Origin: an uncultured Bacteroidota bacterium
GTDB taxonomy: Bacteria; Bacteroidota; Bacteroidia; Flavobacteriales; Flavobacteriaceae
Direction of reading: 5' to 3'
Length of the DNA stretch: 64,000 nucleotides
Assembly (NCBI GenBank): GCA_902586905.1
Contig: CACIJH010000007.1
Coordinates: forward strand, 1 to 64,000
Positions 3,722 to 22,313 of this stretch are shown piece after piece. The position numbers and the translations under genes are program-made. The notes below the pieces were generated by a model. That model was not told the DNA's origin and did no database searches. It saw only the letters and a list, made by a program, of their open reading frames with translations. Numbering within the stretch: the first letter of the stretch is position 1; every line of letters begins with the position of its first letter.

Positions 3722-4390
3722 TTATTTGCGCAAATCAGATATTATTTGAAGTGCATGTTTAGTCTGCTCTTTTATTTTATCATAATCAAACGACCCATCT
3801 GTCTGTTTTGCCATCAGCTTAGAGCCCATGCCTACGCAAGTAACTCCTGCATCAAACCATCCCTTGAGGTTTTCTTCTGTTGGCGATACGCCTCCAGTAG
3901 GCATAATACTGGTCCATGGTTGTGGAGCTAGTACCCCTTTTACAAAGCCAGGTCCATAGGTGCTTCCTGGAAATAGCTTGACAATTTCTGCACCTAACTC
4001 TTCCGCCTTAGCAATCTCGGTTAGTGAACCACAACCTGGTGACCACAATACTTTTCTGCGATTGCACACCGTGGCAATATCTTCTCTTAGTACGGGTGTT
4101 ACCACAAAGTTTGCCCCATTTAGCATATAGGCCGATGCAGCCCCTGCGTCTGTTACAGAGCCTACGCCCATAATCATCCCAGGGAGTTCTTTGATGGCGT
4201 ATTTGGTGAGTTCTGTAAATACTTCAAGAGCAAAGTCACCTCGGTTGGTAAACTCCATAAGTCGTGCGCCGCCGTCATAGCAGGATTTGAGTACCTTTTT
4301 TGCTACTGCTACATCGCTGTGGAAGAAAAGCGGTACCATACCACTTTCTCTCATTGTTTGTGCTACTTCTATTCTTGTAAATTGTGCCAT
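3722..4390 (-). CDS. kdgA: 2-keto-3-deoxy-6-phosphogluconate (KDPG) aldolase
   Basis: The product has 222 residues, the usual Eda/KdgA length. It cleaves KDPG to pyruvate and glyceraldehyde-3-phosphate, the last step of uronate breakdown. The Schiff-base lysine is in EIVKLFPG (Lys138), and a catalytic Glu is in LMEFTNRG (Glu46). GVGSVT and a C-terminal PTGGV segment that binds phosphate are also visible. It is the last gene of a minus-strand operon, MFS transporter - SDR reductase - kdgK - kdgA, with a 16-bp gap to kdgK. No other KDPG aldolase is seen in the window. Confidence 0.95.
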   Translation of the reverse strand: MAQFTRIEVAQTMRESGMVPLFFHSDVAVAKKVLKSCYDGGARLMEFTNRGDFALEVFTELTKYAIKELPGMIMGVGSVTDAGAASAYMLNGANFVVTPVLREDIATVCNRRKVLWSPGCGSLTEIAKAEELGAEIVKLFPGSTYGPGFVKGVLAPQPWTSIMPTGGVSPTEENLKGWFDAGVTCVGMGSKLMAKQTDGSFDYDKIKEQTKHALQIISDLRK

Positions 4391-4406: not shown

Positions 4407-5453
4407 TTATCGGGCTACACGTCCTGATGCGTCGCCACCCATGAGTTTTTCTACTTCGGCTACGGTTACTAAGTTGGCATCGCCTTTTATGGTGTGTTTA
4501 AGGCATGACGCCGCAACAGCAAAGTCTAGTGCATGTTGGTCGTTGTCTGGATATTTTAGTAATCCATAAATAAGTCCACCCATAAACGAGTCTCCACCTC
4601 CTACACGATCTACAATATCTGTGATTTGATATTGGGTAGTGTCATACATGGTCTTCCCATCATATAACACGCCAGCCCATGTATTGTGTGAAGCTGAAAT
4701 CGAACCTCTAAGGGTTGTTATCACTTTTTTAGCCTTTGGGAACTTCTCCATCATCTGTTTACACACAGATAAAAAGGCTTCGGCCTTTACATCATGCCCT
4801 TGGGTTTGTACACTTATTCCCTCAGGCTTGATACCAAAGTGCATTTCAGCATCTTCTTCGTTGCCGAGTACAATGTCGCAATACGATGTAAGTTCAGTCA
4901 TGATTTTCTCGCGATGCGCATCATCACAATATTTCCAAAGCTTGGCTCTGTAGTTTAGGTCTGTTGAAATCGTAATGCCTTTATTACTGGCGATCTTTAC
5001 TGCTTCTAGGCATGCATCTGCTGCCGATTGTGAAATAGCTGGGGTAATCCCCGTCCAGTGGAACCATTCCACGCCCTCAAAGGCTTTGTCCCAATCCAGC
5101 ATACCAGGCTCAATCTCAGACATGGCCGAGTGGGCTCTGTCATAAACCACTTTACTGCCTCGACTGACAGCCCCTGTCTCAAGGAAGTAAATCCCCAAAC
5201 GGTCACCACCACGAAGCATAAAATCGGTCTCCACACCTCGTTTGCGCATTTCCATAAGTGCGCATTCTCCTATGTCATTATTGGGAATACGGGAGACAAA
5301 GCGAACAGGAACGCCATAGTTGGCAAGGGACACTGCTACATTGGACTCGCCACCTCCATATATAACATCGAAAGAATTTGTTTGTGAAAAGCGCAAATAG
5401 CCCGGAGGCGCTAAGCGCAACATGATCTCACCAAAGGTAACTACTTTTTTCAT
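4407..5453 (-). CDS. kdgK: 2-keto-3-deoxygluconate (KDG) kinase
   Basis: The product has 348 residues of the PfkB/ribokinase family. It phosphorylates KDG to KDPG. The N-terminal signature YGGGESNVAVSLANYG binds the sugar. The C-terminal signature DIVDRVGGGDSFMGGLIYG carries the catalytic Asp; it has GGGD in place of the more common GAGD. It sits between the SDR reductase (23-bp gap) and kdgA (16-bp gap). All three uronate routes encoded in the window yield its substrate. Confidence 0.95.
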   Translation of the reverse strand: MKKVVTFGEIMLRLAPPGYLRFSQTNSFDVIYGGGESNVAVSLANYGVPVRFVSRIPNNDIGECALMEMRKRGVETDFMLRGGDRLGIYFLETGAVSRGSKVVYDRAHSAMSEIEPGMLDWDKAFEGVEWFHWTGITPAISQSAADACLEAVKIASNKGITISTDLNYRAKLWKYCDDAHREKIMTELTSYCDIVLGNEEDAEMHFGIKPEGISVQTQGHDVKAEAFLSVCKQMMEKFPKAKKVITTLRGSISASHNTWAGVLYDGKTMYDTTQYQITDIVDRVGGGDSFMGGLIYGLLKYPDNDQHALDFAVAASCLKHTIKGDANLVTVAEVEKLMGGDASGRVAR

Positions 5454-5476: not shown

Positions 5477-6250
5477 TTAAATACCTAGTGCTTGCCCACC
5501 ACCAATTTGAACCGTTTCAGCTGTCATAAATGAAGCGTCATCACTTGCCAAAAAAGACACTACCGCTGCAACTTCATCTGGTTGTCCCAAACGTCCTAGC
5601 ATAATATTATTTTTCCATGATGCAAATACTTCTGGTTTGGTGGACTTGATTTGGGCATGAAAAGGTGTGTCGATTGTACCAGGTGATACTGCATTAACAC
5701 GAATGTTATACTCTGCTAAATCTTTGGCCAAAGCTCTGGTTATGGCATGTACAGCAGCTTTTGATGTGCCATAAATTCCGGCACCAGGACCACCAGCATT
5801 CCAACCTGCGTTTGATGTGTAGTTAATGATTGTTGCATTTTTTCCTTTCTTCAAATATGGAATAGCTGCTCTAGAAACAAAGAAAGTTGAGTCCAAATTT
5901 AAAGCCATTACAAAGCGATAAAAATCAGTTGTCATTTCTTCAAATCTTGAACGACCACCAAGACCACCAGCATTATTGACGACAACATCAATTTTGCCAT
6001 ACTTCTCTCCAATTTGTTTGACATTTTGATTTACAGCTTCTTCATTCGTAACATCAAAGCCAAAATACTCAGCAGTAATTCCCTCAGATTTGAGCATTGC
6101 TACTTTTTCAGCACCCGCATCGTCGTCAATACCATTTAATACAACAGTATAACCATCTTTTCCCAGTCGTTTTGCAACTTCAAAGCCGATACCACTGGTT
6201 GCTCCTGTTATCACTGCAATTCTATTTTCTTGTGAACTCATTATATTCAT
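5477..6250 (-). CDS. dehR: SDR oxidoreductase, probable DEH reductase
   Basis: The product has 257 residues, a classical short-chain dehydrogenase/reductase. The nucleotide-binding motif TGATSGIG is near residue 16, NNAGG follows, and the active-site motif YGTSK is present. In flavobacterial alginate loci the SDR next to kdgK, kdgA and the MFS transporter reduces 4-deoxy-L-erythro-5-hexoseulose uronate (DEH) to KDG. The function is inferred from this order, because SDR sequence alone does not give substrate. A second in-frame ATG three codons in (at 6241) is an equally good start. It follows the MFS gene by 7 bp. Confidence 0.85.
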   Translation of the reverse strand: MNIMSSQENRIAVITGATSGIGFEVAKRLGKDGYTVVLNGIDDDAGAEKVAMLKSEGITAEYFGFDVTNEEAVNQNVKQIGEKYGKIDVVVNNAGGLGGRSRFEEMTTDFYRFVMALNLDSTFFVSRAAIPYLKKGKNATIINYTSNAGWNAGGPGAGIYGTSKAAVHAITRALAKDLAEYNIRVNAVSPGTIDTPFHAQIKSTKPEVFASWKNNIMLGRLGQPDEVAAVVSFLASDDASFMTAETVQIGGGQALGI

Positions 6251-6257
6251 TTAATAT

Positions 6258-7556
6258 TTATACTTTCTTTTTTAATGGTTCGATTTGAGGACATAAAACC
6301 CATATACTTACAATGGCTGTCAGTGCTAAAGCGGCTCCAATAATAAATGCTGGATAGTAGTTGCCCCCTGTAGTTAACCATGGAACCAAAGAAGTTAAAC
6401 CAACCGCTGCTAATTTTGCTGCCATACCTGAAAAACCTGCTAATGTTCCGACTGTTTTTCCACTAAACATATCGCTTGGTAAGGTTTGTACATTTCCAAT
6501 GGCTGTTTGAAAACCAAATAAAATCACAGCCATGATCATTACTGCATTAACAGGTGACCCAGGATTAGACATTGCCAAAAGAGATGGAAGCATGATGAAA
6601 CACCCCAACGCGATGACAAATTTTCGAGTATGGTTTGTCGACCATCCTCGTTTCATAAGATTTTGTGCAAGAAGCCCACCAAACCATGCTCCAACCATAG
6701 CTCCTACATAAGGAACCCATCCATAAATCCCAATACCTTTGACGTCCATCCCATATACTTCTGATAAGTAAATCGGTATCCAGAATACAAATAACCACCA
6801 AATTGGATCGATAGCTGCTGAGGATATGATAACCCCCCAACTTTGTTTATGAGATAACAATTCTTTTGTCGTTGGGGCATATTCGTTGTCATTATCTTCC
6901 TCTGCGCTGGATTGTGATTTTTGACCTGACAATATGTAATCCTTCTCTTGGTCAGTTAGCCATGGGTGTCGCTTGGGAGGAGCTTTCATCAGATACATCC
7001 ATGGAATTAACCACAGCAGTCCAATTAGACCAACCAAAACAAAGATGTATTGCCATTTAAAAATCAAAGCAAGACCTGCTATCACAGGATAGGCTACAAT
7101 TCCACCTATCGAGGCACCTGAGTTAAATAGCCCTTGAGCAAAGGCACGTTCTTTTGTGGGAAACCACTCTGCATTGGCTTTGGTAGCACCAGGCCAGTTT
7201 CCTGCTTCGGCAACCCCTAGTATCGATCGAAAAACAGCAAAGCTTGCAAACCCTTTAGCTAATGCGTGTAAGGCTGTTGCAATTGACCAAATTCCTATAG
7301 AAAGGGCAAAGCCAATACGAGTACCTACCCAATCAAAAATCTTTCCAAAGATGGCCTGTCCAAAAGCGTATGAAAACACAAAAATGACAGAGATCCATGC
7401 ATAGATTTCTTTGCGTTCATCAACAGATTTATCTGGGAAAAGTTCAGGAGCAATCTCTGGCCACAAGACACTCAAAGACTGTCGATCGATATAATTTATT
7501 ACTGTCGCTAAAGCAATTAAGGCAATTACCCACCAGCGTAAACCTTTTATTTTCAT
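6258..7556 (-). CDS. MFS transporter, hexuronate family (ExuT-like)
   Basis: The product has 432 residues from the chosen ATG at 7556, giving MKIKGLRWWV followed directly by the first membrane segment. An upstream in-frame ATG at 7583 would add nine residues. About 12 membrane segments are visible. NYIDRQSLSVLWPEI and GNWPGATKANAEWFP are typical of the hexuronate/anion:cation symporter branch. It probably carries unsaturated or keto uronate monomers across the inner membrane. It is the first gene of the operon with the SDR, kdgK and kdgA. Confidence 0.9.
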   Translation of the reverse strand: MKIKGLRWWVIALIALATVINYIDRQSLSVLWPEIAPELFPDKSVDERKEIYAWISVIFVFSYAFGQAIFGKIFDWVGTRIGFALSIGIWSIATALHALAKGFASFAVFRSILGVAEAGNWPGATKANAEWFPTKERAFAQGLFNSGASIGGIVAYPVIAGLALIFKWQYIFVLVGLIGLLWLIPWMYLMKAPPKRHPWLTDQEKDYILSGQKSQSSAEEDNDNEYAPTTKELLSHKQSWGVIISSAAIDPIWWLFVFWIPIYLSEVYGMDVKGIGIYGWVPYVGAMVGAWFGGLLAQNLMKRGWSTNHTRKFVIALGCFIMLPSLLAMSNPGSPVNAVMIMAVILFGFQTAIGNVQTLPSDMFSGKTVGTLAGFSGMAAKLAAVGLTSLVPWLTTGGNYYPAFIIGAALALTAIVSIWVLCPQIEPLKKKV

Positions 7557-7646
7557 AATCAAAATGTTGTGAGAAAAATGCAAACAAGCTAATGTGCGTT
7601 ATCTTGTTTTGCTATTCAATTATTTCCCTCTTTAATAATCTGTTTT

Positions 7647-8348
7647 TTAGGTTTTATAACAGTATTGATATAAAACGCTAAAATGATCTTTTATCATCAA
7701 TTCAGCCTGATCAGGGTCCTTTGTTCGAATCGCCTCTACAATCGCTTCATGTTCTTTTATCGCACTAAGTGCCATGTCACTTTTACAAACGTGATATTTT
7801 TCAAAGTCAGTGATAATTTGGGGTGTTATCGACAACATCAATTGGTTTAGAGATGGATTGTGACTGGCTTGCGCAATTGCCAAATGAAACAATAGGTCTT
7901 CCTCTACAGACTCCTTACCCGAAAGAGTTTTGGTTCGATAATCTTCAAGTGCTTGCTCGATACGTTCTAAATCTTCAGCTGTGTGACGTATTGCAGCAAA
8001 ACGAACAGATTTTATTTCAAGAAAAATTCTTGTTTCAACCAAAGATTTAAAATCGGGGTCAGGTAGGTTCAGAATCTGGTCAATCATACCATTCAAAGCC
8101 GTTCGTCCTAAGTTTGAAATAAAAGTTCCGCTTTGTGGCATCGATTTTAACAAGCCATAAGACTCTAATTTTTGTATCGCATTTCGAATACTTCCTCTAG
8201 TAACATCTATTCTTTCAGCAAGTAGTCGTTCTGAGGGAAGTTTTTCGCCAGGCTCTAAATTCTTTGTATTAATAAGAGTTTTGATCTCAGAAATAATCAT
8301 TTTTTCCTTTGACTCAAGACCATTAACTACCTTAACATTTGTTTTCAT
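7647..8348 (-). CDS. GntR-family (FadR-type) transcriptional regulator
   Basis: The product has 233 residues. An N-terminal winged HTH (about residues 15-80) contains EKLPSERLLAERIDVTRGSIR and a GTFI wing. A C-terminal FCD ligand domain contains LVETRIFLEIKSVRFAA and ends in a helical segment with the family's metal/acid-binding His residues. The gene lies between the MFS-kdgA operon and the PL7 genes. The perfect palindrome CTGGTTAACCAG at 8357-8368 is in its leader, and the same core occurs in the double-PL7 and susC promoters. It is therefore likely an autoregulated repressor responding to a uronate intermediate. The ligand is inferred. Confidence 0.92.
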   Translation of the reverse strand: MKTNVKVVNGLESKEKMIISEIKTLINTKNLEPGEKLPSERLLAERIDVTRGSIRNAIQKLESYGLLKSMPQSGTFISNLGRTALNGMIDQILNLPDPDFKSLVETRIFLEIKSVRFAAIRHTAEDLERIEQALEDYRTKTLSGKESVEEDLLFHLAIAQASHNPSLNQLMLSITPQIITDFEKYHVCKSDMALSAIKEHEAIVEAIRTKDPDQAELMIKDHFSVLYQYCYKT

Positions 8349-8356
8349 AAAATAGA

Positions 8357-8368
8357 CTGGTTAACCAG
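8357..8368 (-). promoter_or_regulatory. GntR operator in the regulator's own leader
   Basis: The perfect 12-bp palindrome CTGGTTAACCAG lies 8 bp upstream of the GntR start codon. On the minus strand it is overlapped by TAAATCTG (8366-8373), a near-match to the Bacteroidota -7 box TAnnTTTG. The core GGTTAACC recurs at 11903-11910 and 41841-41848 in the same position relative to a -7 box. Binding by the GntR protein is inferred. Confidence 0.65.
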
Positions 8369-8412
8369 ATTTACATCAGTAAATTTAAAAAAAATATTAA
8401 TACTTAACTGTT

Positions 8413-9324
8413 TCAATGAATTACTTTTAATGAATAATATTTTACTCTCGCAAAGGCATTTTCATTTATTGTCCCTAAATAATTACCAGCTTTAAAATAA
8501 TTTTCAAATATGCCCCATTTTTCAATACTGTTTCCTGTATAGGTTTTGGTTTCGTTATCGTTTAAAACAACCTCCATCAATCCATCACCTGCACGAATCT
8601 CCAAGGTGAAAGGTTCATATCCAACGTAAGTTGGAAATGTATAACCACTGTCATTGTCCCATGCATCTGTATGCAATATTTCTGGTACTTCAGCATTGGG
8701 ATTTTTTAATTCTTTGCTGTTTAAACGGACATAGCCATTTACCCATGATATTTTCATAATTGGGGGTGCGTTATTGTCATCTTCCCCAATCAAGTCTCGT
8801 TGCTCGTCTGTGAGCCTTCCATGAATTTGCATGACGATTGTGCGATGTGGATTGCCATTACTGTCTGAAGAAATTTCATCCATCCTCAATCTACCTTTTA
8901 TTGTGCCACCTTGAGAAAAGGTCCAGTTTGTATCATTGGAACCTGAAACCATTTGTTCACGAAGTTCAGTTCTAGAGTATTTGGAATTGGGGGTGCTAGA
9001 ACCTGGTTTTGTAAAAAAAACAAGTGCCCCTTCAATTGAGTCATTGTACATGTAGGGTTTTAATACATCATTGGTTGCATAATCAAGAATTTCGGGGGGT
9101 CCTACAGAAGTTGGATTACCAATCGGCAAAGTCACTTTCCAATTTGTTAAATCAATATCTGGAAGCGAATAAGACGTATTCGTTTCTGAATCATCAGAAT
9201 TTTCATTTGCACCATCTGCACCATATATAGCAAAGTCAAAACCCTTTTTATTTTCACTACAACTAAAAAATTGTAGCGACAAAAAGACTACGGAACAAAG
9301 AATGTAATATTTTCTCAATTTCAT
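8413..9324 (-). CDS. Alginate lyase, family PL7 (lipoprotein)
   Basis: The product has 303 residues. A lipoprotein signal ends at Cys22, followed by an acidic linker (residues 35-50) and an alginate_lyase2 jelly-roll domain. The three PL7 motifs are intact: SRTELREQM (Arg118, Glu120), MQIHG (Gln166, His168) and NYFKAGNY (Tyr276, Tyr282). Gln, His, Arg and the second Tyr are the catalytic set in the family. A QIH rather than QVH motif has been linked to cleavage at guluronate-containing linkages, so polyG or polyMG preference is possible. It is probably on the cell surface or facing the periplasm. It lies downstream of a PL7 remnant and kdgF in the same orientation. Confidence 0.93.
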   Translation of the reverse strand: MKLRKYYILCSVVFLSLQFFSCSENKKGFDFAIYGADGANENSDDSETNTSYSLPDIDLTNWKVTLPIGNPTSVGPPEILDYATNDVLKPYMYNDSIEGALVFFTKPGSSTPNSKYSRTELREQMVSGSNDTNWTFSQGGTIKGRLRMDEISSDSNGNPHRTIVMQIHGRLTDEQRDLIGEDDNNAPPIMKISWVNGYVRLNSKELKNPNAEVPEILHTDAWDNDSGYTFPTYVGYEPFTLEIRAGDGLMEVVLNDNETKTYTGNSIEKWGIFENYFKAGNYLGTINENAFARVKYYSLKVIH

Positions 9325-9330
9325 AAGATT

Positions 9331-9495
9331 TTAATTTGATACCTCTAATTCGAAAAAACTAACTTTTGCAAACGATCCTTCATCACGCGATTGAAAATAA
9401 TTACCTGCTTTAAAGCAATTTTCAAAAACGCTCCTCTTTTCCATATGAACACACTCATAGATTTTAAATTCATTTTTATTGAGTAAAAAATTCAT
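9331..9495 (-). pseudogene. Remnant of a second PL7 alginate lyase (C-terminal 54 codons)
   Basis: This open frame starts at an ATG overlapping the kdgF stop (ATGA) and encodes 54 residues. They align without gaps to the last 54 residues of the neighbouring PL7 lyase, with 24 identities by hand count. FENCFKAGNY matches FENYFKAGNY, and FAKV...LEV matches FARV...LKV. The Arg-Thr-Glu and Gln-Ile-His motifs and the rest of the jelly roll are missing, so it cannot be an active lyase. It looks like the 3' end of a deleted tandem copy. A short peptide could still be made by translational coupling with kdgF. Confidence 0.8.
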
Positions 9496-9839
9496 TCCAT
9501 GAAATCTTCGCGTATTGGACTGAAAACATCGATAAGAACACCATCCTCTAAACAAATAGCCCCGTGCATAACATTGGGTGGAATATAAAAGGCATCTCCA
9601 CCATTTAAAACCTTTGTTTCATCACCAATTGTTACCTCAAAAGAGCCACTGACCACTTGGGTTACTTGTGCGTGATAGTGCTTGTGCATTTGACCAATGC
9701 CTCCTTTTTTGAATTCAACATTTACCAACATGATGGTGTCGTCGTATGCCATGATTTGTCTGCGCACGCCTTCACCTACTTCATCCCATTGGATGTCTTT
9801 TCCAAAATTAAATTCCTTACTTGATCCGAATGATTTCAT
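9492..9839 (-). CDS. kdgF: Cupin, KdgF-type unsaturated uronate ring-opening protein
   Basis: The product has 115 residues, a single-domain cupin. Predicted metal ligands are His52 and His54 in QMHKHYHAQ, Gln58, and His92 in NVMHG, close to the spacing in characterised KdgF proteins. KdgF converts 4,5-unsaturated monouronates released by pectin and alginate lyases to the linear keto form. It sits in the operon after the double-PL7 gene (32-bp gap) and before the PL7 remnant and PL7 gene, which fits this role. A general cupin of other function cannot be excluded by sequence alone. Confidence 0.85.
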   Translation of the reverse strand: MKSFGSSKEFNFGKDIQWDEVGEGVRRQIMAYDDTIMLVNVEFKKGGIGQMHKHYHAQVTQVVSGSFEVTIGDETKVLNGGDAFYIPPNVMHGAICLEDGVLIDVFSPIREDFME

Positions 9840-9871: not shown

Positions 9872-11881
9872 TTATTTTAGTGGTGTTCCTGGACCTACTG
9901 TTGCTTCTCTAAACCAAACCTCTGTATAACTTCCATTTTCATATTGTTTAGCAATATCCCCTCCATAGGTTTCAGCACCTGTACACCATACCATATTTAT
10001 TTCAGGGTTTTTTCCATTTGTCTGGTTATAGGCCCCCTGTTTAAAATAATTTAACTCCCCACTATAAGCAGTGGCACGTTCTGTACCGTCCTGCCCTATG
10101 GGCACAAATAGTTTCTTTACTTGCTGAGGCAAATCTGATTCATTTACATATTCAGAGGAAATTAAATTCTTTGTAAAAGTTTTTGTTTTATGGTTTGGGC
10201 TTGAAAAGGTCAAGTACATGATTCCTTTATAAACATTTACCTCATAACTAAACTCTTCTCCTAATTTAATACCATCTTCTGGCTCGGCAGGATACGCGTC
10301 TTTTGTTGTTCCGATAACAGACATATCATGACCCCAAACAGCAGTTGAGAAGTCCCATCTTCCTGAATTATCCTCTCCAGCAGTATTGATTTCATAGTTC
10401 CAAAAAACCGACCCTTTTGTATGCCCTGGGAATTTTTTATAGAACAATTTAAAGGGCTCATTTTCATGGCCCTCTCCACTGTGTATTTGTCCTATTACAG
10501 TTGAGAATGAAGCAGCAACTCTGGCATCGCCAGTGTTTGAAACATGCATTACTTTACAGATGCCTGTTAGCTTTCCACCCTCTTCTGGAATCCATTCTCT
10601 TTTTTCGTGGAGCTCTGTTCTAGTGTTACTGGAGTTGGGGGAAGTAACACCAGAATTAGGAGTTTTGTATGCAACCCAGCGTCTTGTTCCGTCAATCACT
10701 GTATAGAAAAAGTCTTTGTTTTCAAAATCCACTAGATTGTTTTCTCTTGATCCATCTCCCATTAAAATTTTAAACTTGTCCATAAAAGGAATGACTTCAC
10801 TGGGGTAAACGATCTTTTCACTCAACCCATCATTTGCTGAAAAATAGCCCTCGTTTGAAATGGCTTGATCGCTGATTTCAAGACGAGCTGATTTAAACCA
10901 GACTTCTGCATAATTTCCATCTGCATATTGTTTTTGAAGATCCCCGCCATGGGTTTCTGCACCAGAACACCACACTCTGTTCACTTGTGGACTTTCTCCA
11001 TTGGTTTGATTATAACTCCCCAATTTAAAGAACAAACCTTCTTCAGCGTAAGCGTTTTTGCATTCAACACCATCTTGACCAATAGGAAAAAATAATTCCT
11101 GTACCTGCCTTGGAATATCTGCCTCTGTCTTGTATTCAGAATCAATCAGATTTTTAGTAAAGGTTTTTGTTGGGTGCCCTTCACTTGAAAAGGTGAGGTA
11201 CATCATCCCTTCTTTCACTTCCACTTGGTAGCTAAACTCTTCTCCCAAAGCGATACCCTCTGCTGGTTCTTTTGGAAATACATTTTCGTCTGTTCCAACA
11301 ACAGAAAAGTCGTAACCCCAAACAGGATAGGAATAATCCCATCTTTTTGAATTGTCTTCACCAACTGTATTGATTTCATAATTCCAAAAAACCGATCCTT
11401 TTGTGTGCCCAGGAAATTTTTTATAAAATATCTTAAGAGGTTCATTCTCATGCCCATCTGCACTGTGAATCTGGCCAACCACTACTGAGTAAGTTGCTGC
11501 CACCCGCGCATCACCTGTAGTCGCTACATTCATTACTTTTAGTGTCGCATCTAATTTTGCGTTTGTTAGGGGTGGCCACTTTTTTAGCTGCGCTAGCTCA
11601 GTTCTTGTATTGTTCGAAGTACCATGGGTGTTCCCAGCGTTGGGCGTTTTGAAAACAACCCATTCTCCCTCATTATCAATTGTAACGTAAAAAAAGTCCT
11701 TGTTTTCATAATCAATTGCTTTTCCAACATTTGAACCATCTCCTAAAATTAGATTCCAATGTTGAAAAAAAGGTATGACCTCATTAGCTATTTGAGTTGG
11801 CGTAGCGTTCTGAATACAGCCTTGCAATTGGAAAGCAAAAATTATAGTGAATAGACGAAAAGCCGCATTTTTGATTATCAT
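9872..11881 (-). CDS. Double-domain PL7 alginate lyase (lipoprotein)
   Basis: The product has 669 residues, about twice a normal PL7. A lipobox (LQGC, Cys22) precedes two homologous alginate_lyase2 domains, roughly residues 33-335 and 360-665. Domain 1 has NTRTEL (Arg93), GQIHS (Gln137, His139) and FFKLGSYNQ (Tyr290). Domain 2 has NTRTEL (Arg421), GQIHS (Gln465, His467) and YFKQGAYNQ. Both keep the Arg, Gln, His and second Tyr needed for catalysis. Domain 1 has Phe where the motif's first Tyr usually stands. The two halves share long near-identical stretches such as YKKFPGHTKGSVFWNYEIN, indicating internal duplication. It is the first gene of the operon with kdgF and PL7, behind the operator at 11899-11935. 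Confidence 0.92.
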   Translation of the reverse strand: MIIKNAAFRLFTIIFAFQLQGCIQNATPTQIANEVIPFFQHWNLILGDGSNVGKAIDYENKDFFYVTIDNEGEWVVFKTPNAGNTHGTSNNTRTELAQLKKWPPLTNAKLDATLKVMNVATTGDARVAATYSVVVGQIHSADGHENEPLKIFYKKFPGHTKGSVFWNYEINTVGEDNSKRWDYSYPVWGYDFSVVGTDENVFPKEPAEGIALGEEFSYQVEVKEGMMYLTFSSEGHPTKTFTKNLIDSEYKTEADIPRQVQELFFPIGQDGVECKNAYAEEGLFFKLGSYNQTNGESPQVNRVWCSGAETHGGDLQKQYADGNYAEVWFKSARLEISDQAISNEGYFSANDGLSEKIVYPSEVIPFMDKFKILMGDGSRENNLVDFENKDFFYTVIDGTRRWVAYKTPNSGVTSPNSSNTRTELHEKREWIPEEGGKLTGICKVMHVSNTGDARVAASFSTVIGQIHSGEGHENEPFKLFYKKFPGHTKGSVFWNYEINTAGEDNSGRWDFSTAVWGHDMSVIGTTKDAYPAEPEDGIKLGEEFSYEVNVYKGIMYLTFSSPNHKTKTFTKNLISSEYVNESDLPQQVKKLFVPIGQDGTERATAYSGELNYFKQGAYNQTNGKNPEINMVWCTGAETYGGDIAKQYENGSYTEVWFREATVGPGTPLK

Positions 11882-11898: not shown

Positions 11899-11935
11899 AA
11901 TTGGTTAACCAGTTTGGTTACCCAAATATAGATAT
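11899..11935 (-). promoter_or_regulatory. GntR operator and -7 box of the double-PL7 operon
   Basis: The plus strand reads AATTGGTTAACCA then GTTTGGTTACCCAA, two adjacent inverted-repeat half-pairs, followed by ATATAGATAT. On the minus strand TATATTTG (11923-11930) matches the -7 consensus TAnnTTTG and abuts the operator, so a bound repressor would cover the start site. The whole 37-bp element matches 41837-41873 upstream of susC at 34 of 37 positions. The start codon is at 11881, so the operator lies in the leader. Confidence 0.75.
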
Positions 11936-11940
11936 TTTTT

Positions 11941-13023
11941 TCAGTTTGTCTTTATCACTTTCTGAATAGACATCAATTTATCTACATTATCAAACAACTT
12001 AACCACATACAAACCCTCTGTAAAATGACCAAGATTGATTTCATCATTATAAGTCATCAATATAAGCTTGCCATTTAGGTCATATACCTTAGCGTAATTA
12101 TAGTATTGAGAACTTATAGTTATTGTTCCAGATGTTGGATTTGGGTAAAGGACTACTGGTCTAATGTTGACGTCATTGGCACTCAAACTGCTCACTTCTT
12201 CAAAACTAAAATAGGAGAATAAAACTTCTTCATCTCTAAGGTCTTCAGAGTAAACCAAACTTCTGTATATCCCCCACTTGGGTCGTACAAATTCCCCTCC
12301 TGGTCGCCAATTGACTTTAGGCGCGTCAGCTGATGTATTGTCATAATAAAACAATTCATTTTCAGTATCCATGTCAACAATTGAAATGGAATAAAAACCT
12401 GAAGATGAATAGTTAATTTTTTCAGTAACCTCGACCCAATTGTTTAAAAATGAACTTAGTGGAGTTTCGAATAGTGTGATTTGAGAAGTTGTTTCAGCAT
12501 AACGAAGCTGTAGTTTGTCAGGAGAGCCTTTTCTAGTTGTTAATGTATACATCGGCATACTTTGAAAATCTCCTCCGACTGATTTAAGTTGATGTATATG
12601 AGTAAACTTAGGAGAAGATTGAAAGCCGGCAGGGAGTTTAAATGCCCATTTATATATGACATTCTCCCCTTGGGTTCCCTTTAAATTTGACGGAGATGGA
12701 TGGTAGGTTTTAATTTCATTGCGCTGGCGATCATCGATTTCGTCAATACAACGATCATTATCAGGTGTAACATGAATAAAAAAACGATATGCATAGCCGC
12801 CAATACTGGTGTCATATACCTCATCTATATGATTACCAAAACTAGAATGATTACAATCTGGCACCTCAATTGGATTGTGACCGGGTGCTAAAAAAGCTGT
12901 TAGTTCTTCATAGGTATTTCCAGGGCCGTTTGCTTCAATAACATTCTGTGACCATGACAGATGATGTACAAAAAATAAAAGTATTAAAGAAGCAACCCTT
13001 CTTGAATTTATATAATAAAACAC
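11941..13023 (-). CDS. Putative jelly-roll polysaccharide lyase with T9SS tail
   Basis: The product has 360 residues: a signal peptide (cut near SWSQ), a beta-rich domain (about 27-280) and a T9SS sorting tail beginning VVLYPNPTSGTITIS. The domain carries RQRNEIKTY, THIHQLKSVGG and RPKWGIYRS. This spacing of a charged R-x-E/K motif, a Q/H motif and K-x-GIYR resembles heparin-lyase-I/PL20-like jelly-roll lyases. The family call is by pattern only. A paralogue lies at 33187-34275. It is the last gene behind the kduI-TRAP operon (45-bp gap), so a uronate-containing substrate is likely. Confidence 0.6.
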   Translation of the reverse strand: MFYYINSRRVASLILLFFVHHLSWSQNVIEANGPGNTYEELTAFLAPGHNPIEVPDCNHSSFGNHIDEVYDTSIGGYAYRFFIHVTPDNDRCIDEIDDRQRNEIKTYHPSPSNLKGTQGENVIYKWAFKLPAGFQSSPKFTHIHQLKSVGGDFQSMPMYTLTTRKGSPDKLQLRYAETTSQITLFETPLSSFLNNWVEVTEKINYSSSGFYSISIVDMDTENELFYYDNTSADAPKVNWRPGGEFVRPKWGIYRSLVYSEDLRDEEVLFSYFSFEEVSSLSANDVNIRPVVLYPNPTSGTITISSQYYNYAKVYDLNGKLILMTYNDEINLGHFTEGLYVVKLFDNVDKLMSIQKVIKTN

Positions 13024-13068
13024 TAAGCTGGGATTAATATAGATTTTAATAATTTGATTTTTTTAAAA

Positions 13069-14364
13069 CTAAAGGTCAAAAATTGATGGAAGCCAAAGGG
13101 ATAGTGCAGGAATATAAGTGACTAATAAAAGGGAAACTATCATAGCTAGAAACAAAGGGATTAATGGCTTAATGACTTTCTGTATGGACGTATTTGCAAC
13201 ACCAACTCCGACAAACAAAACACTTCCTACAGGGGGTGTACACAAGCCTATACATAAATTTAAAATCATAATAATTCCAAAATGAACCGGATCAATTCCT
13301 AACTGGGTTACAATGGGTAGAAAAATGGGAGTAAATATTAATACTGCTGGAGTCATATCCATGAAAATACCAACAAATAATAAGGTTAAATTAATCAACA
13401 ATAAAATCACAATTTTATTGTCGCTCAGCGATAAAATACCACTACTAATCATTTCTGGAATATTCTCAAAAGAAAGTACCCACGACATACTCATAGACGC
13501 TCCTATCAAGAACATTACAACAGATGTTGTTATAGAAGATTTTAGCAAAATATTAGGTAGAGACTTTAGCGTAATTTCTTTATAGAAAAATCCCAAAACA
13601 AGTGTATAAATAACGGCAATTGCAGATGCTTCGGTAGCTGTAAAAACTCCTGAAACTATCCCACCAATCACTACAAAAAGTAACATCAAGCTTGGAAAGG
13701 CTTGAACGAAAGAGTTTAAAACTTTTTTTAACGGCTCACGCTTTCCTGTTTTGAGGTTTTTTTTCTTAGCCCACGACATAGCAACAATCATCAGAAACAA
13801 ACCCGTTAGTATTCCAGGAATATAGCCAGCTAAAAACAAAGCAGCAATGGAGGCGCCGCCGCTAGCCAATGAATATACAATTAGGATATTACTTGGTGGA
13901 ATAACAAGTCCAGTAGTTGCAGAAGTTATATTTATTGCTACTCCAAAACCCCTAGAGTATCCTTCTTTCTCCATTTCAGGACCCAAAATACTTCCCATTG
14001 CAGAAGCTGATGCCATAGCTGAGCCTGCAACTGAACCCATTAACATTGCGGAAATAATATTAATGAGGGCTAATCCTCCAGGTAAAAAACCTACTAATGC
14101 TTTAGCGAATGCAACTAATCTCTGTGCTACTCCTCCACTATTCATCAATTCTCCCGACAATATAAAGAATGGTATAGCCAATAAGGCAAAGCTATCGATT
14201 CCAGTAGCCATACGCTGGGATATTGTAGTCAAGGCTGGTAAAAAAGGAATACTAACAAATAGAGTGAAAAGAGATGATATGATTATACTCCATGCAACTG
14301 GTGTTCCTATTGAAAGCAATAATAAAAAACTAAATAATAGTATGGCTATTGAAAAGACTTCCAT
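13069..14364 (-). CDS. dctM: TRAP transporter large membrane subunit
   Basis: The product has 431 residues with about 12 hydrophobic segments, the usual DctM size. LLAIPFFILSGELMNSGG and the conserved GLVIPPSNILIVYS and TPPVGSVLFVG segments mark the family. With DctQ and DctP it forms a sodium- or proton-driven importer for organic acids. In this operon (kduI, kduD, uxaC) the substrate is probably a uronate or keto-uronate. Its first base coincides with the last base of dctQ. Confidence 0.95.
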   Translation of the reverse strand: MEVFSIAILLFSFLLLLSIGTPVAWSIIISSLFTLFVSIPFLPALTTISQRMATGIDSFALLAIPFFILSGELMNSGGVAQRLVAFAKALVGFLPGGLALINIISAMLMGSVAGSAMASASAMGSILGPEMEKEGYSRGFGVAINITSATTGLVIPPSNILIVYSLASGGASIAALFLAGYIPGILTGLFLMIVAMSWAKKKNLKTGKREPLKKVLNSFVQAFPSLMLLFVVIGGIVSGVFTATEASAIAVIYTLVLGFFYKEITLKSLPNILLKSSITTSVVMFLIGASMSMSWVLSFENIPEMISSGILSLSDNKIVILLLINLTLLFVGIFMDMTPAVLIFTPIFLPIVTQLGIDPVHFGIIMILNLCIGLCTPPVGSVLFVGVGVANTSIQKVIKPLIPLFLAMIVSLLLVTYIPALSLWLPSIFDL

Positions 14365-14831
14365 TATGATTTACTTGATGTTAGATCACAGAGCTTGTAA
14401 AAAACAATACATGTCCCGCTTAGTGGTATGCACATGTAAACAAGATATAGGGGAATTTGTAATGCAGCAGATTTTTGACCTAGTACATAACTTAAATATA
14501 CAAGTCTTGAGCCACCAATGATAAAAATCAAAACGGTAGCCAAAATGATAATCGAAAATATAATTTTTTGCATGGCTTTTTGTTGAGACGAACTCAATTG
14601 ACTGGGAAGAATGTCTATGGCAACATGAAGTCGTTTTCCAGAAACATAGGCGGTACCCATAACACCCAACCATATCATGAGATAGCGAGCCAATTCGTCT
14701 GTAAATGAGCTTGGGTTAGACATGACATACCTTGAAAAAACTTGCCAGCTTACATTAAGAACCATGATGCCCAACAAAGCTACCAAAATAATCTCCAAAA
14801 TACGATTTAATTTATCTTGTATGCCTTTCAT
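14364..14831 (-). CDS. dctQ: TRAP transporter small membrane subunit
   Basis: The product has 155 residues with four hydrophobic segments. It contains the DctQ signature WQVFSRYVMSNPSSFTDELARYLMIWLG. It pairs with DctM in the inner membrane. It starts 2 bp after the dctP stop and overlaps dctM by one base, so the three genes are clearly one transcription unit. Confidence 0.94.
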   Translation of the reverse strand: MKGIQDKLNRILEIILVALLGIMVLNVSWQVFSRYVMSNPSSFTDELARYLMIWLGVMGTAYVSGKRLHVAIDILPSQLSSSQQKAMQKIIFSIIILATVLIFIIGGSRLVYLSYVLGQKSAALQIPLYLVYMCIPLSGTCIVFYKLCDLTSSKS

Positions 14832-14833
14832 TC

Positions 14834-15799
14834 CTATTGATTTTTTATTTGATTAATCAACACATCCATTTCCCCATTTGTGCGGTAATAATCGTAAACA
14901 GGCTTAACCATGTCCTCAAACATTTTCTTGTCAGGATAAACAATTTCTACACCAGCTTTTTTTAGTTCACGCAGCGAATTCGCTTCGGATTTAGCCCATA
15001 ATTTTCGCTGATGAACTACAGAAATTGCAACAGCCTCCTCAAGCCACATTTTTTGATTCTCATTTAAACTTTCCCAAAAATAAGATCCACTTACCAAAAC
15101 ATCAGGTAAGGTTGTATGCTCATCTAAGGTGTAGTATTTACAAACCTCAAACTGTTTGGATAGGAAAAAGCTTGGTGGGTTGTTCTCTGCACCATCCACT
15201 ACTTCTTGTTGAAGCGAGGTATACAGTTCACCCCATGAAATTGGCGTAGGGGAACCACCCATGCTTTCAACCATTTTCATAGCTGTAACACTTTCCATAA
15301 CTCTTATTTTTAACCCCTTTAGGTCTGAGGGAGAGTTGATGGGCTTAGACTTCGTATAAAAGCTTCGGCTACCAGCATCGTAATAAGCCAAACCTTTGAT
15401 TCTGAAAGAAGAAGTTTGGTAAAGTAACTCTTTACCAATTGGTCCATCTAAAACTGAAAACGCATGTGCTCTATCTCGGAATAAATATGGTAACCCAAAG
15501 ACTTTCATGTTTGGAGAAAAATTTTCAAGAACACCCGTTGATACTTTGGTGATGTCAAGACTTCCAATTTGCAACAATTCTAGGCATTCACGTTCAGAAC
15601 CCAACTGTTGGTTGGGATATATTTTAATTTTCATAGTTCCAGATGAAATACGGTACAGTTCCTCTCCCATTTTCAACATTGCCTTGTGTACAGAATGATT
15701 GGTGTCAAGTCCATGGCCTAAGCGAATAACAAGATTATTATTAGCTTGTTGACAGGCAATAAACAAAAGCATTGAAAATAATAATATTACTCTTTTCAC
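14834..15799 (-). CDS. dctP: TRAP transporter substrate-binding protein (lipoprotein)
   Basis: The product has 321 residues. The signal sequence ends in a lipobox (FIACQQ, Cys16), so the binding protein is probably membrane-tethered rather than free. The DctP fold is marked by LRLGH-like IRLGHGLDTNHSVH, GSLDITKVSTGVL, and the segment GLKIRVMESVTAMKMVESMGGSPTPISWGELYTSLQ, whose Arg binds the ligand carboxylate in the family. QQEVVDGAENNPPSF follows. It overlaps the uxaC stop by 4 bp. The substrate is inferred to be a uronate-type acid. Confidence 0.94.
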   Translation of the reverse strand: MKRVILLFSMLLFIACQQANNNLVIRLGHGLDTNHSVHKAMLKMGEELYRISSGTMKIKIYPNQQLGSERECLELLQIGSLDITKVSTGVLENFSPNMKVFGLPYLFRDRAHAFSVLDGPIGKELLYQTSSFRIKGLAYYDAGSRSFYTKSKPINSPSDLKGLKIRVMESVTAMKMVESMGGSPTPISWGELYTSLQQEVVDGAENNPPSFFLSKQFEVCKYYTLDEHTTLPDVLVSGSYFWESLNENQKMWLEEAVAISVVHQRKLWAKSEANSLRELKKAGVEIVYPDKKMFEDMVKPVYDYYRTNGEMDVLINQIKNQ

Positions 15800-17214
15800 T
15801 GGCTTGAATAAAAATTAAAATAAGATTTAGCATTATGATAGCATATGTCTGATACTATGGTTCCAATGGTATCCAAATCGCGAGGTAACAACCCCTTTTC
15901 AACATCTTCTCCAAAAATATTACATAACACCCTTCTAAAATACTCATGTCTTGGATAAGACATGAAACTTCGTGAATCTGTAAGCATACCTATAAAAGTG
16001 CTCAAAACACTCATGTTTGACAAAGTGTTAATTTGATTACGAATTCCATCTAATTGATCTAAAAACCACCAGCTTGCACCAAATTGAATCTTGCCACTCA
16101 TGCTACCATCGTTAAAGTTTCCAGCCATGGTTGCAAAGATTGCATTTTGAGCTGGATCTAAATTATATAAAATGGTTTTGGCCAATTTATTTTTACTGTC
16201 AAGTGTATCTAAAAACCTTGACATGCTTTGTGCCTGACGAAAATCACCAATAGAGTCACAACCCATATCATGACCATAGCTATTAAGCATACGGCTATTA
16301 TTGTTGCGTAATGCGCCAAGATGGTATTGTTGTACCCATCCGCGCTCATGATAACTATTTGCTAAAAACAGTAAAACAGCTGTTTTATACTTTTCAATAT
16401 CAGTAGGATTCAAGACCTTTCCTTGTGCTTTTTTTTGAATCACAACATTGGCTATTTCTTCTGAGGTTTCTAAATATGGAATCTGCTCCAGCCCGTGGTC
16501 TGATATTTTACAACCATGAGCTGCAAAATAATCCATTCGATTATTTAAAGCTTTTTTTAGCTTTGAAAATGTATCTATCTTGTAACCAACAATCATACCC
16601 AATTCAGCTAAATGGGGGGTAAATTCTTCTTGCTGTATTTCAATGAATTTATCTGGCCGAAAGGATGGTAAGAGAATAAGATTATCATTTACACCAAATG
16701 CTTTATGATGTTCTAAACTATCGTTAGGATCATCAGTAGTACAAATTATCTCGACACCAAATTTTTTAATAAGATTCAAACAACTATAATCTGTTTGTTT
16801 AAGTAAGGCACTAGTTTGTTCATAAATAGATGCTGCATTGTCAGCGTTGAGTAATTCATCAATACCAAAGTATCTTTTAAGTTCGAGATGTGTCCAATGG
16901 TAGAGTGGATTACGAATAAGTTTTGGTACGCAAGAAGCCCAAGTAATGAATTTTTCTTTTGGCGAGGCATCACCTGTAATGAATCGCTCGTCAACACCCA
17001 AAGTTCGCATTGCACGCCACTTATAATGATCACCCTCAATCCATATTTCGGTTATATTTTTAAACTGATAATCATTGGATATTTGATTTGGTGATAGGTG
17101 GCAATGATAATCAATAATTGGCTGCTTAGCAGCGTAGTTCACATAAAGTTCAAGCGCAAATGCGCTATCGAGTAAAAACCCCTGATCAATAAAAGATTTG
17201 GATTCTCTTATCAT
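15796..17214 (-). CDS. uxaC: Uronate (glucuronate/galacturonate) isomerase
   Basis: The product has 472 residues, the usual UxaC length. It isomerises D-glucuronate to D-fructuronate (or galacturonate to tagaturonate). The amidohydrolase-fold metal site begins with IDYHCHLSP. Further motifs are ICTTDDPND and GMLTDSRSFMSYPRHEYFRR. It overlaps kduD and dctP by 4 bp each. Together with the UxuB-type SDR and UxuA genes at 29913-31945 it completes a glucuronate-to-KDG route, which is not needed for alginate and implies a glucuronate-containing substrate. Confidence 0.96.
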   Translation of the reverse strand: MIRESKSFIDQGFLLDSAFALELYVNYAAKQPIIDYHCHLSPNQISNDYQFKNITEIWIEGDHYKWRAMRTLGVDERFITGDASPKEKFITWASCVPKLIRNPLYHWTHLELKRYFGIDELLNADNAASIYEQTSALLKQTDYSCLNLIKKFGVEIICTTDDPNDSLEHHKAFGVNDNLILLPSFRPDKFIEIQQEEFTPHLAELGMIVGYKIDTFSKLKKALNNRMDYFAAHGCKISDHGLEQIPYLETSEEIANVVIQKKAQGKVLNPTDIEKYKTAVLLFLANSYHERGWVQQYHLGALRNNNSRMLNSYGHDMGCDSIGDFRQAQSMSRFLDTLDSKNKLAKTILYNLDPAQNAIFATMAGNFNDGSMSGKIQFGASWWFLDQLDGIRNQINTLSNMSVLSTFIGMLTDSRSFMSYPRHEYFRRVLCNIFGEDVEKGLLPRDLDTIGTIVSDICYHNAKSYFNFYSSQ

Positions 17215-17993
17215 TGCTCATTGTTTGGTTTTCCAATTGTTGCCAAAATGCCTCCATCAACATAAATAATTTGTCCGTTTACAAAATCACTTGCTTTTGA
17301 TGCAAGGAATACTGCAGTCCCTTTAAGGTCTTCAGTTTTACCCCAACGGCCAGCTGGTGTTCTATTGATAATAAAATCATTAAATGGGTGTCCATCCACT
17401 CTAATTGGAGCCGTTTGAGAAGTCTCAAAATAGCCAGGACCTATACCATTAACTTGTATGTTGTATTTAGACCATTCAGTAGCTAGATTTCTTGTGAGCA
17501 TTTTTAGACCACCTTTTGCAGCTGCATAAGCACTAACAGTGCTACGCCCCAGCTCACTCATCATCGAGCAGATATTGATAATCTTTCCTGACTTTCGTGT
17601 GATCATAGGTGCAGCAAAACGTTGTGCCAAATGAAATGAACCTGTAAGGTGCACATCCGTTACAGATCTAAAGTCCTCTGGTGTCATTTCAATTGCAAGA
17701 GTTCTTTTTATTATACCTGCATTGTTGACTAGAATATCAACTCGTTGTTTTTTGAGAATTTCAGTAGTCACTGTTTTGACCTGTTCATCATTGGTGACAT
17801 CCAATACATAACCAGAAATTTCAAAACCCATTTTTTTGTATTCATTTAATGCATCTTCTAACTTTTGTTTGCTTCTACTTGATATAATCAGTTGTGCTCC
17901 TGCCTCCGCAAGCCCTACGGCCATTGCCATCCCAAGTCCGTGGGTTGCGCCAGAAATAAATGCAGTTTTCCCTTTTAAATCAAATAAATTCAT
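17211..17993 (-). CDS. kduD: KduD-type SDR (2-keto-3-deoxy-gluconate dehydrogenase)
   Basis: The product has 260 residues from the chosen ATG at 17993, giving MNLFDLKGKTAFISGATHGLG; an ATG five codons upstream overlaps kduI. TGATHGLG-type Rossmann motif (here SGATHGLG), NNAGI and YAAAKGG active-site motifs are present. KduD interconverts 2,5-diketo-3-deoxygluconate and KDG, the step after KduI. It lies directly between kduI and uxaC. Gluconate-5-dehydrogenase is a close alternative by sequence, but the kduI neighbour favours KduD. Confidence 0.88.
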   Translation of the reverse strand: MNLFDLKGKTAFISGATHGLGMAMAVGLAEAGAQLIISSRSKQKLEDALNEYKKMGFEISGYVLDVTNDEQVKTVTTEILKKQRVDILVNNAGIIKRTLAIEMTPEDFRSVTDVHLTGSFHLAQRFAAPMITRKSGKIINICSMMSELGRSTVSAYAAAKGGLKMLTRNLATEWSKYNIQVNGIGPGYFETSQTAPIRVDGHPFNDFIINRTPAGRWGKTEDLKGTAVFLASKASDFVNGQIIYVDGGILATIGKPNNEQ

Positions 17994-17994
17994 A

Positions 17995-18831
17995 TTAACG
18001 AAGTTCATTGATGTCTACACCATCCATATCTCCATAGTCTAAATTCTCTCCTGCCATTCCCCAAATAAAGCTATAATTTGAGGTGCCACATCCACTGTGG
18101 ATAGACCAGGGCGGTGAAATTACCGCTTGTTGGTTTTGCATAAAGATATGTCTTGTTTCCTGATGTTCGCCCATGAAATGGGAAATGGAATTATTAACAT
18201 CAATGTCGAAATAAAAATAAACCTCCATTCTTCTAAGGTGCGTATGTGCAGGCATGGTGTTCCACACGTTACCCTCATACAACATTGTAAGGCCCATCTG
18301 CAGTTGGCAAGTAGGAATAATTTCTTGAACAATGAGTTTTTTTATGCGTCTTTTATTAGCATTTTTATCGTCTCCCAGCTCAACATATTGTGCACGTTCA
18401 GATGAAATTTTTTCAGTAGAGTAGCTCTTGTGTGCAGGGGTTGAATTAAAGTAAAACAAAGGGGATTTACCCGAAGTACTCTCAAAAACAACATTTTTTG
18501 TACCTCTTCCAACATATAATGCCTCATGATTTTCAAGTGTATATGCAATTCCATCTACAGTAACAACACCAGTTTCACCAACATTAACGATTCCCAATTC
18601 CCTGCGCTCTAGAAAATAATCGGCTCTTAGTTCATTTATTGACTTTAGGCTAAGTGATTTAGCTTCAGGCTTTGCGCCACCAACAAGGTACCGATCATAA
18701 GTCGTATAATACGAAGTAATTTGATCAGAGATGAAGATTGTCTCTATTAAAAAACGATTTCTCAGCTGTTCTGTGTTGAAATTTTTTGCTTCTGTTGGGC
18801 TTGTCGCTAGATAAATATTATTTGCTTTCAT
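17995..18831 (-). CDS. kduI: 5-keto-4-deoxyuronate isomerase
   Basis: The product has 278 residues, the usual KduI length, with a cupin fold. It isomerises 5-keto-4-deoxyuronate to 2,5-diketo-3-deoxygluconate. Typical features are YLVGGAKP near residue 50, FLERRELGIVNVG, the metal-binding TMPAHTHLRRMEVYFYFD, and PPWSIHSGCGTSNYSFIWGM near the C-terminus. It is the first gene of a tight operon with kduD, uxaC, dctP, dctQ, dctM and probably the jelly-roll lyase. Its leader holds a palindrome predicted to bind the LacI regulator. Confidence 0.96.
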   Translation of the reverse strand: MKANNIYLATSPTEAKNFNTEQLRNRFLIETIFISDQITSYYTTYDRYLVGGAKPEAKSLSLKSINELRADYFLERRELGIVNVGETGVVTVDGIAYTLENHEALYVGRGTKNVVFESTSGKSPLFYFNSTPAHKSYSTEKISSERAQYVELGDDKNANKRRIKKLIVQEIIPTCQLQMGLTMLYEGNVWNTMPAHTHLRRMEVYFYFDIDVNNSISHFMGEHQETRHIFMQNQQAVISPPWSIHSGCGTSNYSFIWGMAGENLDYGDMDGVDINELR

Positions 18832-18838
18832 TTAAAAT

Positions 18839-18858
18839 TGTAATGGATTACAAATATA
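18839..18858 (-). promoter_or_regulatory. LacI-type operator and -7 box of the kdu operon
   Basis: Read on the minus strand, TGTAATCCATTACA (18839-18852) is a perfect 14-bp palindrome, extended to 16 bp by flanking T and A. It abuts TATATTTG (18851-18858), a perfect TAnnTTTG -7 box, and the kduI ATG is at 18831. The same core with compensating changes, TGCAATCCATTGCA, lies at 19995-20008 on the other side of lacI. Confidence 0.75.
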
Positions 18859-18901
18859 AATAAAATGATAAGTTATTTTAAATTATAATTTTGAGTAACG
18901 A

Positions 18902-19930
18902 TTACGTTTTTTGGAAACTCTTCAATGATGAATCCCTAACATAAAGTTTAGGCTTTAGCTTAATAGCGTGCTCAATAATAGCATTATTTGCATTGACTTG
19001 GTCCAAGAAAACACGTGCAGCACTTTTACCCATTTCATATGGATTTTGCTCAATTGAAGTCAATGTCAAGTCCAATAGCTCAGTAAAAGGTTCATTACTA
19101 AATCCAACAACTGATATATCTTCAGGAATATTAACATTATTGTCTTTAAGCTCATGTATAACACCAAGTGCTATATAATCACTGGAGCAAAAAATAGCAT
19201 CAATTTTGATATCGCTGGACAATATTTGACGTGCTGCTTTCCTCCCTGAAATGACATCGCTATTGGCTTGGAAAACAAGGTCAGAATCAAAGTCAATATT
19301 GTTGGCTTCTAGGGCTACTTTATAGCCTTTAAAACGATTTTTATAAATACTTAGATTTAGATCAACAGAAACATGAGCTATATGACTACAGCCTTGATCA
19401 ATTAAGTGTTGCGTAGCAATTTTTCCACCAAACTCGTCATCTGTCTCTACACTACTTGAGTTATCAACGTCAGCCTTTCTGTCAAAGAAAATAAGTGGTA
19501 AATTATTATCAATAATTTTGTTGAAATGATTTTTTGTGCGAGTTGTTTTAGAAACAGAAATAAGCACTCCGTCAACTTGATTCTTTAAAAGCGCATCTAT
19601 AATATCTTGTTCTTTTTTTTCAGATTCATTTGATTGAAAAATCATGACTTGATAACCCTTGGGATATAACTCTTCCTCAACACCCATGATAATATTTGAG
19701 AAAAAATGACGATTAATAAACGGTACAACCAAACCAATCTGATTTGTTCTCCCGCTTTTTAAGGCCAAAGCATGCCGATTCTTAAAATATTTTAATTCAT
19801 GAGCAGATTCCAAAACCATTTTCTTGGTTTTTTTACTTATGAGCTCACTATCATTTAAAGCACGTGATACCGTAGCAGCTGTAATATTAAGCTTAGAGGC
19901 AATGTCGTAAATGGTGGCTTTTTTTTTCAA
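18902..19930 (-). CDS. LacI-family transcriptional regulator
   Basis: The product has 342 residues. The N-terminal HTH reads TIYDIASKLNITAATVSRALND, with the hinge at about 50-60. A periplasmic-binding-protein-like sensor domain follows, starting NQIGLVVPFINRHFFSNII. The gene lies between the kdu-TRAP operon it precedes and the divergent beta-helix operon, and both promoters carry a shared palindrome. It is likely a repressor of both, with a uronate or oligouronate effector. The effector is inferred. Its own -7 box is probably TAATTTTG on the minus strand (19947-19954). Confidence 0.94.
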   Translation of the reverse strand: MKKKATIYDIASKLNITAATVSRALNDSELISKKTKKMVLESAHELKYFKNRHALALKSGRTNQIGLVVPFINRHFFSNIIMGVEEELYPKGYQVMIFQSNESEKKEQDIIDALLKNQVDGVLISVSKTTRTKNHFNKIIDNNLPLIFFDRKADVDNSSSVETDDEFGGKIATQHLIDQGCSHIAHVSVDLNLSIYKNRFKGYKVALEANNIDFDSDLVFQANSDVISGRKAARQILSSDIKIDAIFCSSDYIALGVIHELKDNNVNIPEDISVVGFSNEPFTELLDLTLTSIEQNPYEMGKSAARVFLDQVNANNAIIEHAIKLKPKLYVRDSSLKSFQKT

Positions 19931-21752: not shown

Positions 21753-22313
21753 ATGTACACTGGAGAAGAACTAAAAATTAGAGGGCAAAACTTAGAATAC
21801 TTAATAGCCCAATCTGGACACAGAAATGAATCACTTAAAGATCAAGTGCGAAAGCTATTCAAAGAAGTAGTTATACTAAGGTCAAGAATTGAATTTCTAG
21901 AAAGGGAAAACAAGAAGCGATTAACAAAGGAAAATGACAAACAAGATGTTTTTCAGCCAAATGAAATATCTATCCCCTCATATGATGAAAAACTATTTCA
22001 AAAAGCACTTCAAATTATAGAAGATAATATCAGTAACGAACGTTTTAACATCTCTATATTTTGTTCCGAACTAGGTGTAAGTCGTACATTATTGTTCTCG
22101 AAAATTAAATCATGGTCAAACTTTACTCCAAACGAGCTAATAAAACATTATCGTATGAGTCGCGCTTTACAATTACTTGAAAAAGGCAAGATGATTGTTT
22201 CAGAAGTAAGTTATCATGTCGGCTATAAAAACCCAAAATACTTTAGCAAGTGTTTCAATCAAAAATTTGGCTTAACCCCTAGTCAATTTCAAAAAAAATA
22301 TACGATCAAATAG
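21753..22313 (+). CDS. Short AraC-family regulator with N-terminal coiled coil
   Basis: The product has 186 residues. Residues about 1-65 are highly charged and heptad-like (SLKDQVRKLFKEVVILRSRIEFLEREN), suggesting a dimerising coiled coil. Residues about 85-185 are an AraC double HTH, with VSRTLLFSKIKSWSNFTPNELIKHYRMSRALQLL and VSYHVGYKNPKYFSKCFNQKFGLTPSQF. There is no cupin, receiver or sensor-kinase domain. The HTH resembles the output domain of hybrid two-component systems, so this could be a detached output module. It lies between the beta-helix and GH88 genes in the same direction. Confidence 0.8.
   Translation: MYTGEELKIRGQNLEYLIAQSGHRNESLKDQVRKLFKEVVILRSRIEFLERENKKRLTKENDKQDVFQPNEISIPSYDEKLFQKALQIIEDNISNERFNISIFCSELGVSRTLLFSKIKSWSNFTPNELIKHYRMSRALQLLEKGKMIVSEVSYHVGYKNPKYFSKCFNQKFGLTPSQFQKKYTIK

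Follow-up and report, generated by a model that had tools for sequence, protein, structure and literature searches.

This stretch of DNA (64,000 nucleotides, called the window in what follows) carries two almost identical 37-bp modules, one upstream of an alginate lyase operon and the other upstream of susC, and the question arises whether a single regulator acts at both. Direct alignment within the window confirmed that positions 11899-11935 and 41837-41873 are identical at 34 of 37 bases. Extension of the modules by 5 bp on each side did not add a single matching base and thus the similarity ends at their edges. The 35-base common pattern TTGGTTAACCANNTTGGTTANCCAAATATAGATAT matched exactly at both modules, but it was absent from 100 dinucleotide-preserving shuffles of the window even when 3 mismatches were allowed; none of the shuffled windows had such a pair.

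The lyase module is located in the 59-bp gap before 9872-11881, the gene of a double PL7 lyase. On the minus strand this gene is followed by genes for a cupin, a second PL7 lyase, the GntR protein (gntR), an MFS transporter, an SDR oxidoreductase, a KDG kinase and a KDPG aldolase. The susC module is followed by susC, susD and the gene of a PKD-domain protein. Judging from this gene content, the alginate pathway of the window is apparently complete. As a reference for the regulator we used AusR, the regulon of which was reportedly described in Zobellia galactanivorans by Dudek et al. 2020 (doi 10.1093/nar/gkaa533). The genes are as follows:

9872-11881, minus strand: lyase with a pair of PL7 domains, first gene downstream of the lyase module (Pfam Alginate_lyase2, two stretches)
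9492-9839, minus strand: cupin gene of the lyase operon
8413-9324, minus strand: second PL7 lyase gene of the lyase operon
7647-8348, minus strand: putative GntR/FCD repressor gene, AusR orthologue (Pfam GntR and FCD; alignment with 18 orthologues)
6258-7583, minus strand: MFS transporter, downstream of gntR
5477-6250, minus strand: SDR oxidoreductase, judging from gene order probably a DEH reductase
4407-5453, minus strand: KDG kinase (PfkB family)
3722-4390, minus strand: KDPG/KHG aldolase
38689-41751, minus strand: susC, TonB-linked outer-membrane transporter (TIGR04056, 793 bits)
37260-38678, minus strand: susD-like gene (Pfam SusD_RagB)
36259-37239, minus strand: PKD-domain protein of the susCD operon

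The GntR protein (7647-8348) carries the domains of the GntR/FCD (FadR) subfamily, an N-terminal GntR wHTH (PF00392, 61.1 bits, cut-off 27) and a C-terminal FCD domain (PF07729, 89.8 bits, cut-off 24.3), and both scored above their Pfam cut-offs. Its residues D151, H155, H200 and H222 do not vary among 19 orthologues and presumably fit the metal-type effector pocket (Asp plus three His) of FCD proteins. The double-PL7 gene contains, at 9903-11368, two diverged copies that are 984 bp apart, share 67-74% DNA identity and include a 37-mer pair with 35/37 identical bases; by DNA comparison this is an internal domain duplication.

When we dissected the modules, we found in both of them a flavobacterial -7 box TATATTTG and two TGG-N4-CCA palindromes that are exactly 13 bp apart. 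The box is perfect on the minus strand in either case (11930-11923 and 41868-41861), and the two inverted repeats beside it correspond to what had been predicted. Read on the minus strand, the layout is ATATC, TATATTTGG[G/A]TAACCA, a 3-base linker and TGGTTAACCAATT, and in both modules the first two bases of palindrome 1 are the last two of the -7 box. In the transcription start site map of F. psychrophilum, the TAnnTTTG box is positioned at -12 to -5 (PMC9723704) and this register was used for the start sites given below. No TTG was present near -33 of the lyase promoter. The following promoter and operator parts were assigned:

11923-11930, minus strand: -7 box TATATTTG of the double-PL7 lyase promoter (exact match)
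about 11918, minus strand: predicted start site of the lyase promoter, leader of about 37 nt (F. psychrophilum register)
11915-11924, minus strand: predicted operator copy 1 TGGGTAACCA of the lyase promoter, sharing bases with the -7 box end and extending over the predicted start site
11902-11911, minus strand: predicted operator copy 2 TGGTTAACCA of the lyase promoter, 13 bp downstream of copy 1
41861-41868, minus strand: -7 box TATATTTG of the susC promoter (exact match)
about 41856, minus strand: predicted start site of the susC promoter, leader of about 105 nt (same register)
41853-41862, minus strand: predicted operator copy 1 TGGATAACCA of the susC promoter
41840-41849, minus strand: predicted operator copy 2 TGGTTAACCA of the susC promoter
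8358-8367, minus strand: predicted single operator TGGTTAACCA in the gntR leader
8366-8373, minus strand: degenerate -7 box TAAATCTG of gntR (one mismatch to TAnnTTTG)

The third site requires some comment. The core palindrome of the original prediction, CTGGTTAACCAG, is indeed present as an exact copy in the gntR leader (8357-8368) and nowhere else in the 1.35-Mb genome, but its counterparts are TTGGTTAACCAG in the lyase module and TTGGTTAACCAT in the susC module. The core common to all three promoters is not CTGGTTAACCAG but TGGTTAACCA, i.e. TGG-N4-CCA, which in the modules recurs at a fixed 13-bp period. The prediction can also be refined at gntR, where TAAATCTG overlaps the lone palindrome in the same register as at the lyase and susC promoters; with the F. 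psychrophilum register, the predicted start site of gntR is 8361.

Next to its own genes, a regulatory element may occur at many unrelated ones, and we searched for this in the genome of the window. As analysed, this genome comprises 1.35 Mb and is about 70% complete, so that further targets may be missing. Here, the tandem element was found at two places only (up to 3 mismatches), which are the lyase and the susC modules; an occurrence at many unrelated genes, named beforehand as a refutation, was not observed. The lone-site pattern YTGGTNNACCAR matched at 14 places vs 9 for the reversed control, and because of this small difference the lone-site search in this genome is uninformative. Specificity in this genome is limited to the tandem element and to the site that is joined to a -7 box.

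Several other regions of the window were inspected. Control of the divergent sulfatase gene at 42066 by the susC module was rejected because there is no -7 box on the sulfatase-facing side. A weak operator-like site at 17226 is probably a chance match, since it lies inside the coding 3' end of 17211-18008. The region 11941-19930 carries a separate uronate cluster (KduI, SDR, UxaC, TRAP transporter, polysaccharide lyase) beside a LacI-type regulator; no convincing AusR operator was detected in this cluster and for this reason its control probably differs from that by AusR. A gene for a chondroitinase-B/PL6-like lyase (27280-29661) is without an operator here, unlike its homologues in some relatives, which do have the tandem form.

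To relate the element to the regulator, we screened 397 genomes of the family. A GntR orthologue (protein query, E<=1e-50) was detected in 103 of them. The DNA pattern TTTGGNNNACCANNNTGGNNNACCA also matched in 103 of the 397 genomes and its reversed control in 0. The two sets, which were compared from lists transcribed out of both search outputs, are the same: the tandem operator was found in 103/103 genomes with the orthologue vs 0/294 genomes without it. The element is also present in the sister genome and in two more family genomes, all of which have the GntR orthologue, and it is absent from 15 family genomes that lack it. These data, together with the sites at the gntR, susC and lyase promoters, argue for the suggestion that one GntR repressor serves gntR, the PL7 operon and susCD. 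On these comparative grounds, we are highly confident that an AusR-type GntR/FCD repressor, the product of 7647-8348, uses these sites as its operators.

Two side observations concern the distribution of this system. In the genus of the window, several genomes of which are incomplete, a close GntR orthologue was present in 2/13 genomes only (the own genome and G010) and thus, the alginate locus has a patchy distribution there. In a viral collection, the exact tandem pattern was found on two contigs (L017:8494-8516 and L018:4048-4070), which are either viral or mis-binned bacterial DNA.

The genome-by-genome tracking of the GntR orthologue is difficult to reconcile with the alternative that another regulator of the cluster (LacI-type, 18902-19930, or AraC-type, 21753-22313) binds the sites and that GntR acts elsewhere. 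A LacI-family gene is present in the same window beside the UxaC/TRAP cluster, the AraC-type gene is nearby and LacI operators are likewise palindromes. However, the LacI gene has no operator copy, the half-site TGGT is shared with PdhR and LldR, the closest GntR/FCD proteins that have been characterised, and most relatives have the operator in front of gntR itself (53/80 with a TGG-N4-CCA site within 220 nt upstream). We consider this alternative very improbable.

The architecture of the operators was compared in 80 orthologous loci. Here, TGG-N4-CCA core pairs within 40 bp were spaced by 13 bp (141 pairs) or 26 bp (42 pairs) and by nothing else, and there were none in shuffled sequence. The 80 loci and the window contain 101 arrays, 59 of which are double and 42 triple. 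Because TAnnTTTG is positioned at the array edge in a fixed register in 88/101 arrays and a TTG precedes the -7 box by 19 bp in 39/89 cases, the arrays look like real promoters. Where a downstream gene was found, it was a susC homologue in 65/85 cases, and the remaining ones include homologues of PL7, PL6, gntR, MFS and KDG kinase genes. The existence of the sites, the fixed register that they keep on promoters, their conservation and their co-occurrence with the regulator are all direct observations.

In the lyase module of the sister genome, the operators have changed at the palindrome centres and in the linker; both the TGG and CCA arms and the -7 box have been retained. Also very improbable is a recent promoter duplication or gene conversion, instead of selection on each site, as origin of the near-identity: the 34/37 identity does include ATATC upstream of the -7 box, but it stops at the module edges, almost every matching position is part of the promoter-operator consensus of the family and the two modules of the sister genome differ from one another at palindrome centres and linkers.

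In AusR homologues outside the family, the exact 13-bp pattern was not found. Three such homologues carry related sites, two of them TGGTTGACCA-type palindrome pairs at a distance of 15 bp upstream of gntR and the third single copies. The pairs are located as follows:

L236:5637-5688, upstream of the regulator gene: 15-bp-spaced TGGTTGACCA-type pairs
L237:5127-5151, upstream of the regulator gene: 15-bp-spaced TGGTTGACCA-type pair

The 15-bp spacing in these two homologues suggests that the half-site is older than the 13-bp spacing or that the spacing has shifted. One might speculate, with considerable reservation, that the copy number of the operator and its spacing act as a code, in which one copy at the regulator gene provides loose autoregulation and two to three copies kept strictly at 13 bp provide tight cooperative silencing of the lyase and uptake genes, and that the spacing has shifted between lineages.

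For the AusR-type repressor we infer binding, dimer stoichiometry, repression and inducer according to the following scheme. Each TGG-N4-CCA palindrome would be occupied by one repressor dimer. In the F. psychrophilum register, operator 1 would span about -6 to +4 and operator 2 +8 to +17. Operator 1 shares two bases with the -7 box and covers the predicted start site, operator 2 follows 13 bp downstream, and two bound dimers would thus prevent initiation at both the lyase and the susC promoter. Autorepression through the lone copy at gntR would be looser. As alginate is broken down, the repressor may be released by one of the unsaturated uronates formed or by a metabolite further along the pathway (DEH or KDG class), which would lead to joint induction of the lyases, of uptake via SusCD and of the catabolic genes.

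According to these sequence-based data, an AusR-type switch would control the alginate genes of this marine flavobacterium, which is uncultured and has a small genome. The signature, a -7 box fused to TGG-N4-CCA every 13 bp, can be read from the genome, tracks the regulator with no exception in 397 genomes and helps to assign a substrate to SusCD pairs in metagenomes.

How does this system compare with characterised ones? Like NanR of E. coli, the protein would be a GntR/FCD repressor of an acidic-sugar pathway, and three NanR dimers bind a three-repeat operator cooperatively (PMC8012715). However, the NanR operator consists of (GGTATA)3 direct repeats, whereas here palindromes recur every 13 bp, and the score of our protein against the NanR model (116.4) does not reach the cut-off of 260. 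PdhR and LldR of E. coli, which also belong to the GntR/FCD proteins of the FadR subfamily, recognise an inverted repeat with the half-site TTGGT or TGGT, as here. Their boxes (AATTGGTnnnACCAATT for PdhR, AAnTGGTCnGACCAnTT for LldR) have a 3-bp centre, TGGT-N3-ACCA (PMC7660256, PMC10272880), but the centre is 2 bp in the window and its relatives (TGGT-N2-ACCA) and the pathway is a different one. LldR (123.6, cut-off 311) and PdhR (107.6, cut-off 330) are among the closest NCBIfam models by score, although both scores are far below the cut-offs.

The modules do not reveal a new kind of regulation. The idea of an alginate GntR repressor with these operators is already known from Zobellia, and we regard the system as an AusR regulon and no new one, a likeness drawn through secondary papers and gene context. 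These papers state that Zobellia AusR represses most alginate genes (PMC8286568), that its operators occur in single, double or triple copies (PMC7874173) and that alginate metabolites are reported to release it (PMC7874173, PMC8286568). Our system differs in that it belongs to an uncultured flavobacterium with a 1.35-Mb genome, in which only three operator-bearing promoters were found and susC is 30 kb away from gntR. The likeness lies in a GntR-family regulator encoded inside the alginate locus, among PL7 lyases, KDG kinase and KDPG aldolase, and in an operator that occurs once at gntR, twice at each of the lyase and susC promoters and in double and triple arrays in the relatives.
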